Assembly: GCF_014696435.1 (NCBI RefSeq)
Contig: NZ_JACJQG010000012.1
Location: 1 to 64,000, forward strand
Length of the DNA: 64,000 bases
From: Calothrix anomala FACHB-343
Lineage (GTDB): Bacteria > Cyanobacteriota > Cyanobacteriia > Cyanobacteriales > Nostocaceae
Reading direction: 5' to 3'
Part shown: positions 1,820-64,000 of the stretch, piece after piece
Layout of the letters: each line of letters begins with the position of its first letter
How positions within the stretch are numbered: the stretch's first letter is position 1
Notes under the pieces: model-generated
Databases searched by the model: none
Told to the model about the DNA's origin: nothing
The model's input: the letters and a program-made list of their open reading frames with translations, nothing else
Translations under genes and position numbers: made by a program

Positions 1820-3931
1820 TTAACGTACCACTGCCCGATAAGGACTTGTCAACTTATCAAGCTGCTGGGTTAACAGACTGAGGAATAATCCCACATCTGT
1901 CACCACACCCACCGATTCAATTGAACCGCGATCGCTTAATTTGGTGACGACAGCCGGATTAATATCCACGCATACCATTTTCACCCCAGCCGGAGTCATA
2001 TTTCCCACGCCAATGGAGTGGAGCATACTCGACAGCATCAAAATCATCTCCGCACCTGCTAGATTTTCGGCGTATTCCTGCTGTGCTTTGAGTAAGTCCA
2101 TTTGGGTGTCGGGTAAAGGCCCGTCATCGCGAATCGAGCCAGCGAGGACAAAGGGGACATGATTTTGTACGCATTCATACATTACCCCACTCTTAATTAC
2201 GCCAGCTTCCACAGCTTTAGCAATACTGCCATGACGGCGAATGGTATTAATTACCTTCAGGTGATGACGATGTCCGCCACGCACGGCGACACCCCGCTTC
2301 ATATCCACACCGAGAGATGTTCCCATCATATTTTGCTCGATGTCATGAACAGCGATCGCATTTCCGCCTAATAAAGCTTGGACATATCCCTCACGAATCA
2401 ACCTTGAGAGATGTTCGCCGCCACCAGTATGAATTACCACAGGCCCGGCTGTGACAACTACTTTACCACCAGCATCACGAATTTTACGTAATTCCCAAGC
2501 TACTTGTTCTACCACTAATTCCACCCGGCGCTCGCTGGAAACCCCAGCAGACATAAAGCTGAATTCTTGGGCGTTGCGCTGTTCCCGCGATTCGGTTTTG
2601 CGGATGGTGCGGATACCTTGGACATCGACAATTACCTGTTCGCCTACTTCTAAATCCCGTAAGATTTTACACTTAGCAACGTAACCATTAGCAGATCGAG
2701 TAATTGCGATCGCGCCATCCATACGCTGATTTTGCACCTTCACCCACTCACCATGAATCCGCACTTCAGTGGGATAAATTGTACTCACATAAAAATCATC
2801 TGGGGCGACACCAGTTTGAATTACAGGCTCTAGCTTCGCATCTCGCTCATCTTGGGGCAAGTCTACCGCACCCAAATCGATTAACTGCGAGATAATTTCT
2901 TCCATCACCTCATGGGATGGTGCTGATACCTTAACTTCAGCTGCTGAGGTACTTTGGCGCTGTTCTCCCAAGTCAAAATTCAGAACCTGGAAACTACCAC
3001 CTGTATCAACAATCAAGTCTAAAGCGCGGTTAATCAAGCCAGAATCAAGCAAATGCCCTTCTAAGCGGATAATCCGACTTTCCACAGACACATTTGCATG
3101 AACTTCATCCCTGACTGGTTCAGTTACCCGCAGAGTCAGACATTTAGCCGCACCACCAGCTTTGAGGAATTCTGTTAGCGGTGTTTCAATAATTTGGAAA
3201 CCGACATTTTTCAAGCGAGATTTTAAACTATCACTCGCCTTGTTCATAATCACGATGCTGTCTACATTCACCGCATTACAGGCGAAATTCACCGCATCAG
3301 CTTCTTCTATTGCAATGCGTTTTTCTGCTGCTACCCGCATTTCAATTAAGCGGTTAGAGTAGGAATCAAACGCACCGGGGTAATAAAGTAAATAACCGTT
3401 AGCTAAAGGACAGAAGCAGGTATCTAAATGATAAAAACGCTCATCAATTAGCCGTAGGGATAGTACTTCAATATCTAGCCACTTCGCCAAGTAGGGGTGA
3501 GAATCCAATTCTGAACGGAAGCCATAACCAGCCCATAACCAGCGTCCTTCTCGATCTAGTAGGGCGTCTCCCGCACCTTCAAAAGGTAAATCTTTGGGGA
3601 GAACATGAACTGTGTAACCATTGGCTTCAAACCATTTTTGGAAATAAGGCTCTTCTCCCTGGCGTTCTTTGTGTAAAAAACGACTCAGAACAACATTATC
3701 GCCCAACACCAAGCCAGCATTAGCGGTAAATACCATGTCAGGCCAGCCTTTTTCCGGCGGGACTAAATCGACAATGGCGTGTTCTTTAATTACGTGGTAG
3801 AGTTTTTGCCACTGTTCCACAGCGCGATCGCGCGATGATTTATGGATATTCCCTTCCATCCAGGGATTAATCACATAGTCCACATCGTAGTGGTCAGGAG
3901 CGCACATCAAAAAGCGAATCGGGGAAGTCAT
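1820..3931 (-). CDS. agrE: Bifunctional arginine dihydrolase / ornithine cyclodeaminase AgrE
   Basis: Arginine-guanidine-removing enzyme: arginine to ornithine plus ammonia and CO2, then ornithine to proline plus ammonia. In heterocyst-forming cyanobacteria it completes catabolism of arginine released from cyanophycin; the Synechocystis counterpart is ArgZ. The 703-residue length equals that of the known Anabaena protein. The N-terminal half is a guanidine-modifying (pentein) domain with FTANAG (Asn71), FYHLDTC (His168) and the candidate catalytic cysteine in GGAAKCLTL (Cys264). The C-terminal half, from about residue 285, is the LOR/SDH-type (TIGR00300) cyclodeaminase domain with a glycine-rich VVTAGPVVIHTGGGEHL stretch. 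All key residues look intact. Identification is strong. Confidence 0.95.
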   Translation of the reverse strand: MTSPIRFLMCAPDHYDVDYVINPWMEGNIHKSSRDRAVEQWQKLYHVIKEHAIVDLVPPEKGWPDMVFTANAGLVLGDNVVLSRFLHKERQGEEPYFQKWFEANGYTVHVLPKDLPFEGAGDALLDREGRWLWAGYGFRSELDSHPYLAKWLDIEVLSLRLIDERFYHLDTCFCPLANGYLLYYPGAFDSYSNRLIEMRVAAEKRIAIEEADAVNFACNAVNVDSIVIMNKASDSLKSRLKNVGFQIIETPLTEFLKAGGAAKCLTLRVTEPVRDEVHANVSVESRIIRLEGHLLDSGLINRALDLIVDTGGSFQVLNFDLGEQRQSTSAAEVKVSAPSHEVMEEIISQLIDLGAVDLPQDERDAKLEPVIQTGVAPDDFYVSTIYPTEVRIHGEWVKVQNQRMDGAIAITRSANGYVAKCKILRDLEVGEQVIVDVQGIRTIRKTESREQRNAQEFSFMSAGVSSERRVELVVEQVAWELRKIRDAGGKVVVTAGPVVIHTGGGEHLSRLIREGYVQALLGGNAIAVHDIEQNMMGTSLGVDMKRGVAVRGGHRHHLKVINTIRRHGSIAKAVEAGVIKSGVMYECVQNHVPFVLAGSIRDDGPLPDTQMDLLKAQQEYAENLAGAEMILMLSSMLHSIGVGNMTPAGVKMVCVDINPAVVTKLSDRGSIESVGVVTDVGLFLSLLTQQLDKLTSPYRAVVR

Positions 3932-53816: not shown

Positions 53817-54941
53817 TCAAACAGCAATTGCTGGCGTAGCCAGTCTGACATCACCTAACCCAACAGTCGATGCCCCGACTGCACAAATATTACGACTGGC
53901 GTTTTCATCTCTTCCATTAATTGACTGACAGGAAGGACAACGCCATTCTCTAAGGGACAAATCTAAACTCTCTAGAAGGTGCCCACAACTAGAACAAGTC
54001 TTGCTACTGGGATACCATTGGTCGATGAAAACAACCCTCTTTTTCTTGTTTTTGGCAACCCATTCTAGAATTTGAAGAAACTCACCAAAACCCAAATCTG
54101 ATATCTTCCTACCCCAAAGCCGTTGCATTCCTTTGAGGTTGAGCGTTTCAAAACAGAGAATATCAAACTTGTCTGTTAACTCATGGGCTAACTTCCAAAA
54201 CCAGTCCCGCCGACGATGAGAAATCTCCTCATATTTGCGGACTAAATTCTTCCTTGCTCGTTCTCTATTTGATGAGCCTTTTAACTTTTGAGAATGCTGC
54301 TTGCTGGCTTTTTTAATAGCATTGAGCGACTGCTGGAAAAATAGGGGAGATTCAATTTTGGAGCCGTCCGAGCAAGTGAGGAATGTCTTTAACCCAAAGT
54401 CAAAGCCAGCGATTTTACCTGTCTTCACTTCAACTTCTGGGTTGCGACAATCGTCAACAACCAAAACCATGAACAACTCACCTAATGGGGTGCGTTTAAT
54501 AGTTAGGGTTTTGACTGTTCCCTCAATCTCTCTCGACCGACAAAATTGATAAACACGCAGGCCAATTTTTACGCTGTTCCCACCCAAAAACTTATAACCT
54601 GCTTGCTTGAGGGTGAAAGATTTGTATTTCTTAACCTTCTTAAACCCCGGTGGTCTTACTCCTGTTTTGTTGTGCTTAAAAAATAACTGGTAGGCTTTTT
54701 CGATGCGTTGACAAATATCTTGTACTGCCTGAGAGCCTACCGATTGCCACAGAGAATTACGCTTTCTCAATTTGGCAATATGTGACTGAAGTTTTGCGCT
54801 GGGTAAATGCTTGCCAAACATCCGATAGTACCGTTTATGTAGGGCAATGCAATGGTTATAAATCACCCCAGCAGCGTTAATTGTGCGTTTTAGATGTTTA
54901 TTGCGCTTGTGTTGGTAGAGCTTAAACTTCAGTGTCTTCAT
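53817..54941 (-). CDS. tnpB: TnpB, RNA-guided nuclease of an IS200/IS605-type element
   Basis: About 374 residues from the ATG at 54941; the frame stays open 12 codons upstream. The RuvC set is intact: Asp181 in GFDFGLKTF, Glu265 in CFETLNLKG and Asp345 in GRDENASRN. The zinc ribbon is CSSC (316-319) and CPSC (335-338). The N-terminal helix is short and basic (LKFKLYQHKRNKHLKRT). It differs from the other two TnpB proteins in sequence and ends. Confidence 0.93.
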   Translation of the reverse strand: MKTLKFKLYQHKRNKHLKRTINAAGVIYNHCIALHKRYYRMFGKHLPSAKLQSHIAKLRKRNSLWQSVGSQAVQDICQRIEKAYQLFFKHNKTGVRPPGFKKVKKYKSFTLKQAGYKFLGGNSVKIGLRVYQFCRSREIEGTVKTLTIKRTPLGELFMVLVVDDCRNPEVEVKTGKIAGFDFGLKTFLTCSDGSKIESPLFFQQSLNAIKKASKQHSQKLKGSSNRERARKNLVRKYEEISHRRRDWFWKLAHELTDKFDILCFETLNLKGMQRLWGRKISDLGFGEFLQILEWVAKNKKKRVVFIDQWYPSSKTCSSCGHLLESLDLSLREWRCPSCQSINGRDENASRNICAVGASTVGLGDVRLATPAIAV

Positions 54942-54975
54942 GCTAATATTGTACTGCAATAATAAGTACAAAGCC

Positions 54976-55113
54976 ATGACTAAAGTTCCTTTGACAATAA
55001 GAATTGAAGAATCAGAGATGAAGATTCTTAAAGCGTTTTGCGATCAAACTGGAAGAACTCAAACAGACGTTCTGAGGGAAGCGATCAGGAAGCTCAAGAT
55101 CAAGCCGTGCTAG
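54976..55113 (+). CDS. Small ribbon-helix-helix protein divergent from tnpB
   Basis: A 45-residue protein starting at the ATG 54976, reading MTKVPLTIRIEESE, then MKILKAFCDQTGRTQTDVLR, and a basic tail. The pattern, one beta-strand with alternating residues (VPLTIRI) then two helices joined by GRTQ, is that of MetJ/Arc-type DNA-binding proteins. It lies 34 bases from the divergent tnpB start, so it may repress its own promoter and that of tnpB. The stop codon lies in the loop-proximal part of the left-end hairpin. It is too short for ordinary gene callers. Confidence 0.75.
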   Translation: MTKVPLTIRIEESEMKILKAFCDQTGRTQTDVLREAIRKLKIKPC

Positions 55114-60736: not shown

Positions 60737-62884
60737 TTACGGTGTGAGAAAATCTAAATGGTCGCCTGGTAAGGAACGTAACTCTTCTACTTTTCCTTCC
60801 ATTTTCAATTTTCCCTTTTCCAAGAAAATAATCCAGTCGGCACGCTCAATTACCCTGGGACGGTGGCTGATAATAATTGTAGTTTTGCCTGTTCTGTAAA
60901 ATAGCAGTCTATCTAAAATTTCTGATTCACTACTGGGGTCAAGTCCGGCTGTAGATTCATCTAAAATTAGTAGGGGTGGATTATGAACTATGGCGCGCGC
61001 TAGTGCTAGTCTTTGTCTTTGTCCACCAGAAATATTAGCGCCAAATTCTCCTAAAACTGTTTGATATGTGTCAGGTAATTTACTAATAAATTCGTCAGCG
61101 AGGGTAATTTGACAGGCGTTGACAATTTCTTCAAAACTGACATTTGGAGAACCTAAGCGGAAGTTTTCAATAATTGAGCGACTCCAAAAATGAGCATCTT
61201 GGGGGACTAGAACTACTTGTTGTCGTAATGATTCTAAAGATAAATCTTGCTGGTTATAAATGCCATAGCGAATATTGCCAGATTGCACTGTATGTAAACC
61301 AGCAATTAATTTGGCTAAGGTACTTTTACCACAACCTGATTTGCCAATTAAGGCAATAACTTTACCCCCTGGAATGGTGACGGAAAAATCTTCTAATAAG
61401 TCTACTCTACCAGCATAATAAAAGTTCAATTTGCTACAGATAATATCTGTATTATCGGAAATGTTTGCCCAAGGTTTCTGTGTATCTAAAGAAGCTTCAG
61501 GGGTACTGTCTATCACTTCTTGAATGCGGCTATGAGCAGTTTGTACCTGGGCAAATTCATCGACAACATCGATAATAAAACTAAATAAGCCAGTAACATT
61601 ACTAGTCAGGCTTGAAAATGCTAGTAATTGACCTATAGTTAATTCTTTACTAATGACAAGTTGACTACCAAATAATAATAGAACTGTACTGCCAATATTA
61701 GCAACGAGTCCAGAAAATTTTTGGTTAATAATTTCAATTTGGATGGTTGTTAAAGATAATTTAGTCAACCGCGTAAATCGGCTTTGTAATTCTTCCCAAA
61801 ACTGTGCCGCACTCGTAGTAGTTTTCAGGGTTAATGCACCTTTAAAAATTTCTACTAACACACCTTGATTTTCAGCATCTAAAACCATGTATTTACGGGT
61901 TTTTTGTTGCACAATAGGTAGAAATACAATTGTACTAATGCTCATTAAAAAGACAATTATTAAAGAAAATAATGCTAATTTCCAACTGTAATAAAACATT
62001 AAACACAAGCAGACTATAGCCATAAATAATTTGGTAGGAAAGCCAATTACTGCTTGGGCGATAAAACTATTAATTTTTTCAATATCTCTGACTCTGCTTG
62101 ATACTTCGCCACTACGACGGGCTTCATAGTATTTCAAAGGTAAATTTAAGATTTTTTGCCCAAATTCTAACATCAGCTTTAACTGTAAGCGTTGAGCAAA
62201 ATTAGCAATCAGGATATTTTGCACTAACTCTAAGCTACTGTTAACAATGTGCATTACAATTACTGCTAATACTACAGATATTAGCAAATCGTAATCGCGG
62301 CGGACTAACACATCATCAGTAAGAATCTGCACCAGGAAAGGAGAGGCTAAAGAAAGTAAGCCGATTAATTGGGAAATTACCAAGGCTTCTATAATCACAC
62401 CTCGGTGTGGCAAAATACCCTGAATAAACTTTTCAAAAGTATTAACTTTGTCATCTGGTTCTGCAAAAAAACGATTTGCATCTGGTTGGAGTAATAAAAC
62501 GACTCCATTTTGCCAACCCTCAATTAGTTCCTGCTGAGACAGATAACGAATACCTATTGCGGGATCGCCAATAATATATTGTTTACCACGCTGTCCATAC
62601 AAAACTACCCAATGATATCCTTGCCAATGGATAATCGCAGGTAGTGGCATTTTTGAGAGATTTTTGAGAAAATTTTCTGATGCTTTGCCAGTTCGAGTAT
62701 AAAGACCTAAAGCTTCTGTACCACGTCTTAAACCTAGCAAAGTAGTTCCCAGTTGACCGCTACCTATAGCTTCGCGGATACGGTTTATAGTTAAGTTACG
62801 TCCATAAAATTTGAGAATAGACGCAACACAAGCTGCACCACAGTCTTCTTCACTGTGCTGCATTATAACTGGGTATTTCTTCAT
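60737..62884 (-). CDS. C39-peptidase ABC transporter for a GG-leader peptide
   Basis: 715 residues. The N-terminal C39 domain cleaves double-glycine leaders: Cys15 in EEDCGAAC, His91 in YHWVVLYG and Asp107 in IIGDPAIG. Six membrane helices occupy about 160-430. The ATPase domain has Walker A GKSGCGKS (514-521), ISGGQ (618-622) and Walker B LLILDE (638-643). All catalytic residues are intact, so it should be a functional peptidase-exporter (PCAT/bacteriocin type). It lies 594 bases downstream of the likely substrate gene at 63479 on the same strand. No membrane-fusion partner is visible before the window ends. Confidence 0.93.
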   Translation of the reverse strand: MKKYPVIMQHSEEDCGAACVASILKFYGRNLTINRIREAIGSGQLGTTLLGLRRGTEALGLYTRTGKASENFLKNLSKMPLPAIIHWQGYHWVVLYGQRGKQYIIGDPAIGIRYLSQQELIEGWQNGVVLLLQPDANRFFAEPDDKVNTFEKFIQGILPHRGVIIEALVISQLIGLLSLASPFLVQILTDDVLVRRDYDLLISVVLAVIVMHIVNSSLELVQNILIANFAQRLQLKLMLEFGQKILNLPLKYYEARRSGEVSSRVRDIEKINSFIAQAVIGFPTKLFMAIVCLCLMFYYSWKLALFSLIIVFLMSISTIVFLPIVQQKTRKYMVLDAENQGVLVEIFKGALTLKTTTSAAQFWEELQSRFTRLTKLSLTTIQIEIINQKFSGLVANIGSTVLLLFGSQLVISKELTIGQLLAFSSLTSNVTGLFSFIIDVVDEFAQVQTAHSRIQEVIDSTPEASLDTQKPWANISDNTDIICSKLNFYYAGRVDLLEDFSVTIPGGKVIALIGKSGCGKSTLAKLIAGLHTVQSGNIRYGIYNQQDLSLESLRQQVVLVPQDAHFWSRSIIENFRLGSPNVSFEEIVNACQITLADEFISKLPDTYQTVLGEFGANISGGQRQRLALARAIVHNPPLLILDESTAGLDPSSESEILDRLLFYRTGKTTIIISHRPRVIERADWIIFLEKGKLKMEGKVEELRSLPGDHLDFLTP

Positions 62885-63478
62885 AGTTAAAATTTAGTTT
62901 TTATGTGGCGATTGATCCTAAAAATTAAATGATTATATAGCTGTTATATTTGATATTGTAATTTTTCATGTCAAGTTTTTAACTTGAGTGTAGTTGATAT
63001 AGATAGTAGCAAGATAAAAACACTCAACAGACAGCTTTTTTCCCTAGCTCAACGAATGCAATAAACTTTCTTATATAATCGTAGCCGCGTTTTTTGGAAG
63101 TAGATTTTAATGAATTTTGATTAATAAATTTTTATTTTTAATATGTAAGAATCCAAAACCTAAACTAGTTAAGACATCAGCTGGCTGTAAATATTAGCTA
63201 AAAATATAGCTTTTACAACCAGCTAATGCTATTGTATGCATAAGCCATTAGATTAATAAGGCGATATAGAGTGCGGCTATCCCTATTAGCCGCGTCTCTT
63301 CCTCAAGCTTATGCGATCCATTTTCAATTACACCCAAGGGACTATTGGGACTGGCAAATCACAAAACATCCAAATTATTTTTTGTGGGATGGAATTTTTG
63401 TCTTTCCAAGGTAAGAATAAGACAAGATTCTTGCACCACAAAGTTAGATGATTGATTGTTGCTATACCCTTGCCTTGA
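62885..63478 (-). other. Leader region between GG-peptide gene and exporter
   Basis: The region holds a strong long hairpin (63179..63224), a smaller GCGGCTA/TAGCCGC stem (63272..63292) and no second precursor gene on either strand. Such stems between a peptide gene and its exporter often set their expression ratio. Confidence 0.6.
63179..63224 (-). terminator. Long hairpin between peptide gene and exporter
   Basis: Stem AGCTGG-TGTAAA-AGCTA paired with TAGCT-TTTACA-CCAGCT, 17 bp with one mismatch and a small bulge. It has no U tract on either side, so it may be a processing or attenuation hairpin rather than a strict terminator. Confidence 0.5.
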
Positions 63479-63679
63479 TTAATGGTGAGGATGGGGAGGC
63501 TCGTAAGGTTTATGTACTGGGGGCTGGGGTGCTGGATGCCATTTCCACCATTTCTTCTTCAAAAGCAAACCCAGTAACAAGAAAGTACCACCAGAAATTG
63601 TTGCTTGATTTTCATCAGACAATTCAGAAAGGCAGCTTTCGTCAATAGACAACAATTTATTTTCAGAGTCGATCATCAT
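63479..63679 (-). CDS. Double-glycine leader peptide precursor (bacteriocin-like)
   Basis: 66 residues. The leader ends with LSELSDENQATISGG (Gly30-Gly31), the classic site cut by C39 peptidases, with the hydrophobic and acidic pattern (LSIDESCLSEL) of cyanobacterial bacteriocin leaders. The predicted 35-residue core starts TFLLLGLLLKKKWWKW, a hydrophobic stretch followed by a Lys/Trp cluster, and ends in a Pro/His-rich tail (HPAPQPPVHKPYEPPHPHH). It has no Cys, so disulphide or lanthionine rings are not expected. No modifying enzyme is visible. The ATG at 63679 or the adjacent ATG at 63676 can be the start. The likely exporter is the next gene downstream. Confidence 0.82.
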   Translation of the reverse strand: MMIDSENKLLSIDESCLSELSDENQATISGGTFLLLGLLLKKKWWKWHPAPQPPVHKPYEPPHPHH

Positions 63680-64000
63680 GATAAACTTCCTAATTTTGGA
63701 ATGTTAATTTTGATGTTGATGAGCCTTTAAACATTTTTATTAATTACAGATTTTAGAAAATTTATCTGCAAATAAACAAAAATGTTTGCATAACATAAAT
63801 TGCCAAAAGATTAAGCCAAAATGGCTATTTTTTTGAGCAATTACTGTTATTTCGTAAGCTCATGGCTATAAAACTACAGCATCTTCAAAAAAAAGTACAG
63901 TCTTTTTGAAGTTTTTAAATACCATGCTTTTAAGTAATAATTTAAGCATGATTTATTCAGCGATCATCGGCAGTCAACAATAAATATATATAGCGTTAAT
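63680..64000. promoter_or_regulatory. Upstream region of the peptide gene, to the window edge
   Basis: AT-rich, with two hairpins: CTTCAAAAA/TTTTTGAAG (63882..63910, followed by TTTTTA on the plus strand, terminator-like) and CATGCTT/AAGCATG (63924..63951). No coding frame is seen before the window ends. Confidence 0.5.

Follow-up and report, generated by a model that had tools for sequence, protein, structure and literature searches.

The first 64,000 nucleotides of contig C24 of Calothrix anomala FACHB-343, a genome of 9.24 Mb in 144 contigs, form the window analysed here, and window and contig coordinates are equal. Near its end, a 66-residue open reading frame (ORF; 63479-63679, minus strand) encodes a peptide precursor with a 31-residue double-glycine leader and a 35-residue core, beside a complete C39-type ABC exporter and opposite an HlyD membrane fusion protein that carries a receiver domain. 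The same locus in Calothrix brevissima NIES-22 keeps the leader and both transport proteins but has a different core. We consider it probable, at about 0.7, that the neighbouring exporter, through its C39 domain, cleaves the precursor after GG31 and that a 35-residue peptide leaves the cell: the exporter, the receiver-fused HlyD protein and an outer-membrane channel, presumably encoded elsewhere, would together export the cationic core unmodified. The leader would be kept constant for the exporter, with the core being replaced or driven apart between strains, and the role that we place first for the product is that of a bacteriocin-like peptide of narrow spectrum, acting extracellularly on a partner that varies.

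The precursor, its exporter and a receiver-fused adaptor

The first-pass annotation, made from the letters of this DNA alone, had described a leader ending in ATISGG and a core with an LLLGLLL block, a KKKWWKW cluster and a PPHPHH end, and all of these stand in the ORF at 63479-63679. The leader (63587-63679) has hydrophobic residues at -12 and -4 and GG at -2/-1; E19 and L20 (-13/-12), I28 (-4) and G30 and G31 (-2/-1) fit the published GG-leader consensus of EL at -13/-12, E at -8, I/L at -7, I/V at -4 and GG or GA at -2/-1 (PMC3140520). A likely ribosome binding site, AGGAAG (63686-63691, minus strand), stands 6 bases ahead of the ATG, and NIES-22 has it unchanged. A strict form of the leader motif, L[ST]xx[EDQN]..[IVLM]xGG, occurs in 1 of the 230 window ORFs of 40-150 residues; 40 dinucleotide shuffles yielded 0.075 on average and never more than 1. 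This rarity is weak taken alone, because the motif was written after the ORF had been seen, and the reality of the gene is better supported by comparison, since another genome, that of NIES-22, keeps the leader. No Pfam or NCBIfam family model matched the precursor up to E 1. Other ORFs of at least 20 residues shared with NIES-22 around it are short (at most 47 residues here) and mostly overlap or follow conserved DNA, and none stands out as a candidate immunity gene.

The core (63479-63586, stop codon included) contains 8 Pro, 5 His, 3 Trp and 5 Lys, has its hydrophobic block at the N-terminal end and carries a calculated charge of +3.8 at pH 7; it may, as had been proposed, be amphipathic and membrane-active or metal-binding, and once exported it would act on membranes, matrix or metals. 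The leader has one Cys and the core, as first annotated, has none. Unmodified, the core has a calculated mass of 4255.0 (monoisotopic 4252.35), a simple peptide of known expected mass that is available to look for. We rejected a LanM-class lanthipeptide: a Pfam search found no LanC-like gene in the source assembly or in NIES-22, although 7 of 9 genomes of the genus have one, and the core lacks Cys. The absence of a LanC-like gene implies that the peptide is probably unmodified, at least by that route. The earlier claim that no modifying enzyme lies nearby therefore stands in so far as none was seen in the neighbourhood and no LanC-like gene genome-wide, other modifying enzymes not having been searched for genome-wide.

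For the C39 family it is established that the exporter binds the leader, cleaves behind GG and sends out the core. The exporter downstream of the precursor on the same strand (60737-62884; 715 residues, short type) is complete, as first annotated, with Peptidase_C39 (E 2.5e-33), ABC_membrane (1.1e-38) and ABC_tran (2.5e-30) domains and with Walker and signature motifs. Its C15, H91 and D107, which we take to be the catalytic residues, have matching counterparts in an alignment with the solved C39 transporter 4s0f/4ry2. Matches include two members of this family, 4ry2 ('ABC-type bacteriocin transporter') and ComA, and P-glycoproteins top one match list via their two ABC halves. The source genome gives 10 matches to the exporter at E 1e-80, itself included, of which three, itself counted, are nearly full-length at no less than 60%. 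The gap between precursor and exporter measures 594 bp and contains a stable stem-loop (63174-63229, minus strand; z -5.57 for 161 nucleotides folded), which is largely conserved in NIES-22 and occurs at one place in the source genome (81-base query). Candidate roles for it are processing, termination or attenuation, and an Rfam search of 4 kb around the locus gave nothing at gathering score.

Past position 64000, where the first-pass annotation advised looking for an HlyD partner, one is present on the plus strand: a 658-residue membrane fusion protein beyond the window end (C24:64546-66522, which is L003:4546-6522 in the L003 numbering used below), here called REC-HlyD. It joins a NarL-like receiver (Response_reg, 6.8e-29, residues 4-115) to an HlyD_3 domain (3.6e-12) and has one likely membrane helix, with the best 19-residue window starting at residue 187. 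The divergent intergenic stretch that separates it from the precursor spans 866 bp, and positions 63680-64000 of it lie in the window.

A conserved leader before a divergent core

The genome of the nearest homologue is that of NIES-22 (L004, the same as G012), which belongs to the same genus and to the order Nostocales in NCBI. Chorismate lyase, exporter, precursor and REC-HlyD follow one another in the same order in both strains, with amino-acid identities of 93.6% for the exporter and 94.2% for REC-HlyD. The NIES-22 precursor reads MTINSENKLLSIDESCLSELSDENQSTISGG followed by TFGLLSWSWSFLFSWCLPKPVYVAPQPVCPPPQPVCPPPQPVCEPPKSYC; its core consists of a Pro/Cys repeat, lacks His and has an expected mass, counted from T32, of 5598.7 Da (reduced), and when the Pro-rich tails are compared there is His here and Cys there. 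Across the leader and the codons for TF, the first two residues of both cores, 91.9% of aligned bases are identical over 99 nucleotides, and the 33 codons differ by 3 amino-acid changes and 4 silent ones. After TF the identity is 45.1% of aligned bases and 30.7% of columns, compared with 86.3% in the 300 nucleotides on the 5' side, 83.0% in the 300 nucleotides on the 3' side, 71.5% for what remains of the precursor-exporter gap and 79.2% in the distal part of the upstream DNA. When the two syntenic stretches are compared by blastn, the match stops at 3470 and resumes at 3582 (L003 numbering), bracketing the core, and its remaining breaks fall in intergenic DNA or at a TnpB-type insertion.

Why would a leader be kept and its core be changed? 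An unconstrained tail is expected to diverge like its flanks, not far more, and the core has therefore probably been replaced or driven apart; because the NIES-22 core contains repeats, slippage can contribute to the divergence. A weak likeness persists over the first residues of the core, with nothing detectable beyond: once seven residues are dropped from its start, the core aligns at chance level (score reached by 362 of 2000 shuffles). A gap-rich nucleotide alignment of the two cores after TF gives 60.6% identity against a shuffle average of 61.7%. The locus offers a clear example, from two strains, of a constant leader followed by unlike cores, in which the core would behave as a variable cassette. 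The stress that had been laid on the His/Pro/Trp core as the telling feature is not borne out, since the only close homologue keeps the leader and has a different core; of the homologue that had been sought, one with a GG site before a similar core, NIES-22 supplies the GG leader and not the similar core.

The principle of a conserved leader before a variable core is already known, and 290 cyanobacterial precursors of this kind have been predicted (PMC2887384 and PMC3140520 for the principle, PMC3140520 for the count). The NHLP and N11P (Nif11) precursors likewise combine a conserved GG leader with a hypervariable core in cyanobacteria (PMC2887384, PMC3140520), but the source precursor, unlike these, matches no family model. 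The locus resembles the group III clusters of Wang, Fewer and Sivonen (2011; PMC3140520) in its short-type C39-ABC exporter without N-terminal CAP_ED, its HlyD partner, its GG precursor with a variable core, and the lack of LanM and of a second ABC protein. It differs from them in that the source HlyD carries a receiver, whereas Wang's is a single-domain protein, and in that its gene is divergent from exporter and precursor. Since the HlyD consists of Response_reg plus HlyD_3 and is not single-domain, we file the cluster as a group III variant; no SurA or CAP_ED occurs in the locus, as judged from ORFs and from Pfam of the cluster genes only.

Relatives of the adaptor that lack the receiver are also found with GG precursors. 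In the stretches around the best of them (L082-L096, a set that leaves out the lower-ranked G169, G084, G031 and G066 and all below), a GG-leader ORF occurs in 15 of 15; in 10 rounds of shuffling the number never left the range of 0-2 of 15. An exporter relative is present in 14 of the 15, with only a piece in L086 and none in L088, a 7.8-kb contig. Eleven of the stretches (L085-L087, L089-L096) have a precursor with a long DIIRAWKDEEYR-type leader, presumably that of mersacidin-type lanthipeptides, and we call these clusters mersacidin-like on the leader alone. They are like the source locus in their exporters (55-58% identical where intact), their HlyD proteins (53-57%) and their GG precursors, and unlike it in the long leader and in their Cys-containing cores.

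Relatives of the precursor itself are few. Below E 1e-6 they occur, besides the source, only in G012, G020 (two copies), G022 and G025 among 218 family genomes; 133 of the 218 match at E 1, and the weaker matches are treated as noise or leader-only likeness. Order-wide, a leader profile matches 13 of 388 genomes at E 0.01, source included, and 7 of the 12 others are leader-like matches in frames of 137-149 residues, these seven from one genus. Searched against the 9 genomes of the genus, the core DNA returned only itself and 16-29-base matches at E 0.06 or worse, and tblastn of the whole precursor gave no match in plasmids. Matches in a Paracoccus metagenome-assembled genome (L005, residues 45-62) and in G085 and G086, which contain a stop, look like chance Pro-rich similarity. 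Elsewhere, L037:8126-8934 contains two adjacent GG precursors with the same leader type and Gly/Ser-rich cores, and no C39 exporter relative is present in the fetched 18 kb.

Candidate roles of the product

Unlike cores after one and the same leader speak for a role against, or towards, a partner that changes, and for this reason bacteriocin-like action is put first; granted maturation and export, it is the most plausible single role, held at somewhat less than an even chance. Several observations weigh against this account as a whole. At -8 and -7 the leader has N24 and Q25, the latter in place of a hydrophobic residue, where the published consensus has E and I/L, and NIES-22 has the same two residues; we regard this mismatch as a deviation inside a loose consensus. 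No immunity gene was recognised near the precursor. The 594-bp gap with its strong stem-loop means that a single precursor-exporter transcript cannot be assumed. The divergence of the core, a claim that rests on two genomes, is not complete: without TF, the alignment score of the core is reached by 42 of 2000 amino-acid shuffles, a residual likeness at its start, and for the nucleotide score the counts are 17 of 1000 when bases are shuffled and 55 of 1000 when codons are. Slippage at repeats, in DNA so rich in Pro codons, might moreover generate such divergence in the absence of selection. Finally, the g7 precursors (G020, G022, G025) have the leader in common with the source, and a TLGLL start, yet their cores are Gly/Ser-rich, no C39 exporter relative lies in the stretches fetched around them, and they are more like structural proteins than bacteriocins.

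A role in the extracellular matrix or at the cell surface, where the peptide would build or decorate a mat or biofilm and not act as an antimicrobial, is kept close behind bacteriocin-like action because of the precedent of EbfG1-4 and PteB in Synechococcus elongatus PCC 7942, another cyanobacterium with GG precursors and a C39 transporter (PMC4997328, PMC9981879). EbfG1-4 need PteB for efficient secretion and are needed for biofilm, EbfG1-3 form amyloid, and Pro and Tyr are abundant in an EbfG1 fragment that was detected (PMC4997328, PMC9981879). Unlike the source locus, EbfG1-4 form a four-gene operon with 6-7 kDa products and a known biofilm role, and in the available parts of the literature cited here they are the only precursors of this kind with a tested role. 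The low-complexity Gly/Ser cores of the g7 leader relatives and the Pro/Cys repeat of the NIES-22 core also speak for a matrix component; on the other side, the source core is short and strongly cationic, and a structural component would less readily be expected to differ between sister strains by the exchange of most of its core. Overall we think such a role unlikely, if a serious contender, and a little less unlikely once export is granted.

Capture of copper or zinc outside the cell, by the His/Pro tail here and a Cys/Pro tail in NIES-22, would fit the placing of His and Cys in similarly Pro-rich tails. His and Cys are common metal ligands. However, no metal-related gene was noticed in the immediate neighbourhood, judged by eye and with no metal-gene search, and the two cores known for the locus align no better than shuffles beyond their first seven residues, so that we hold metal binding to be improbable, among exported products only slightly less so. 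No better placed is a role in signalling, in which a kinase would sense the peptide and act on the receiver of the adaptor, giving feedback control of export. The receiver on the adaptor does suggest some two-component input to the system, but no histidine kinase was found near REC-HlyD, among five L003 ORFs scanned or other neighbours judged by eye, and hypervariable cores would need a co-varying receptor, of which none was found; we rate this role a shade below metal binding overall and level with it given export.

The exporter has probably been lost elsewhere in the genus. In G013, G014, G015, G016 and G019 there is no exporter and, by pattern, no GG-leader ORF between chorismate lyase and REC-HlyD; what is left (L077-L081) is a 3' stub with in-frame stops that matches the C-terminal 70-100 residues of the exporter (by tblastn, the best match in each genome lies between 3e-17 and 3e-10, against 0.35 for the best match of a reversed-sequence control). 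The stubs indicate that the ancestor probably had the exporter. REC-HlyD is open in all five, at 76-79% identity, and may serve another exporter, several being present there. By this example the source locus, too, might be decaying, its ORF not a working precursor and both genes on their way out, but we find this the least credible of the alternatives, given that both genes are intact in the source genome and in NIES-22 and that the leader is more conserved than the non-coding flanks.

Receiver-HlyD fusions and the divergent promoter

The fusion of a receiver domain to the adaptor suggests that a kinase switches export, which may occur post-translationally by phosphorylation of the receiver. 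More broadly, and tentatively, cyanobacterial type I peptide secretion could be gated by a two-component phosphorelay, with the receiver at the cytoplasmic end of HlyD and a kinase opening or closing the channel while transcription stays unchanged; the fused architecture recurs on several HlyD subfamilies and is kept in the genus even where the local exporter has decayed, and there it would serve another exporter in trans. We consider this possible but, on balance, doubtful. If the receiver does control the adaptor, it provides a direct link from sensing to peptide export.

Full-length matches to REC-HlyD (residues 1-658) come from at least seven genomes, every one of them in this genus (of 9) among the matches listed, and G032, which among the listed matches aligns only over residues 168-657, has an eighth receiver-HlyD fusion. 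A query of receiver plus linker against the 388 order genomes returned at least 31 rows with open frames of at least 600 residues, including the source genome and G019. Pfam found receiver and HlyD together in 17 of 17 long proteins examined (16 of the 31 plus G032), which shows that the fusion recurs and not how common it is, because these proteins were chosen for length and similarity. Their HlyD parts range from 49% similarity to the source-strain adaptor down to about 21%, and several go undetected by blastp at 1e-6; the receiver has therefore been attached to several HlyD subfamilies. The VDD motif (D8, D9), D54, S82 and K104, which we assume to be the functional receiver positions, are kept in 11 of 11 aligned fusions. 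Most of the best unfused receiver matches are frames of 213-250 residues at about 50-58% identity, presumably the size of NarL-type regulators. The available parts of PMC4971617, PMC8277102 and PMC13125312 contain no description of a receiver-HlyD fusion; the first tabulates HlyD proteins, without such a fusion.

An exporter relative adjoins 6 of the 17 fusions, and 11 are without one. In L129, L130, L132 and L140 the adjacent relatives are 27-29% identical and include the C39 part, and L129/L132 and L130/L140 look like orthologous pairs. L118 has an adjacent relative of 62% identity that is cut by the contig end (residues 76-713), and L133 has only a 50-residue C39 piece. Beside that fragment and the receiver-HlyD gene, L133:1315-3221 encodes four GG precursors whose leaders resemble one another (MK.E.NQQQT.W) and whose cores differ. 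Such fusions (L118, L125-L140) are found in more than one cyanobacterial family and on HlyD proteins of different subfamilies, some adjoining glycosyltransferases (L125 and L131 by Pfam, L127 and L134 by likeness) and some C39 exporters.

The divergent promoter contains an exact Nostoc LexA box, RGTACNNNDGTWCB, at C24:64253-64266; the 64-kb window has none, with an expectation of 0.48. NIES-22 has a near match at this place, and the five exporter-less relatives have degenerate versions only. A LexA box has been predicted for alr5147 (PMC3091678), next in number to alr5148, the HlyD of the group III example (PMC3140520). Across 25 clusters the box is not enriched, with 2 in 139.5 kb inside and 4 in 242.8 kb outside, the two inside being the source-strain promoter box and one within the coding sequence of L118; LexA control of the locus is a lead only. 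Upstream of REC-HlyD, at L003:4280-4460, two similar stretches of about 50 bases (TTATTTAA[GT]CATATAGTCAATA...) stand about 120 bases apart in both genomes, as seen by eye, and form a possible operator.

Genes for TnpB-like transposases (OrfB_IS605, Cas12f1-like_TNB) occur at L003:6972-8165 and, in the window, at 53817-54977; the former lies just downstream of REC-HlyD, in a stretch absent from NIES-22.

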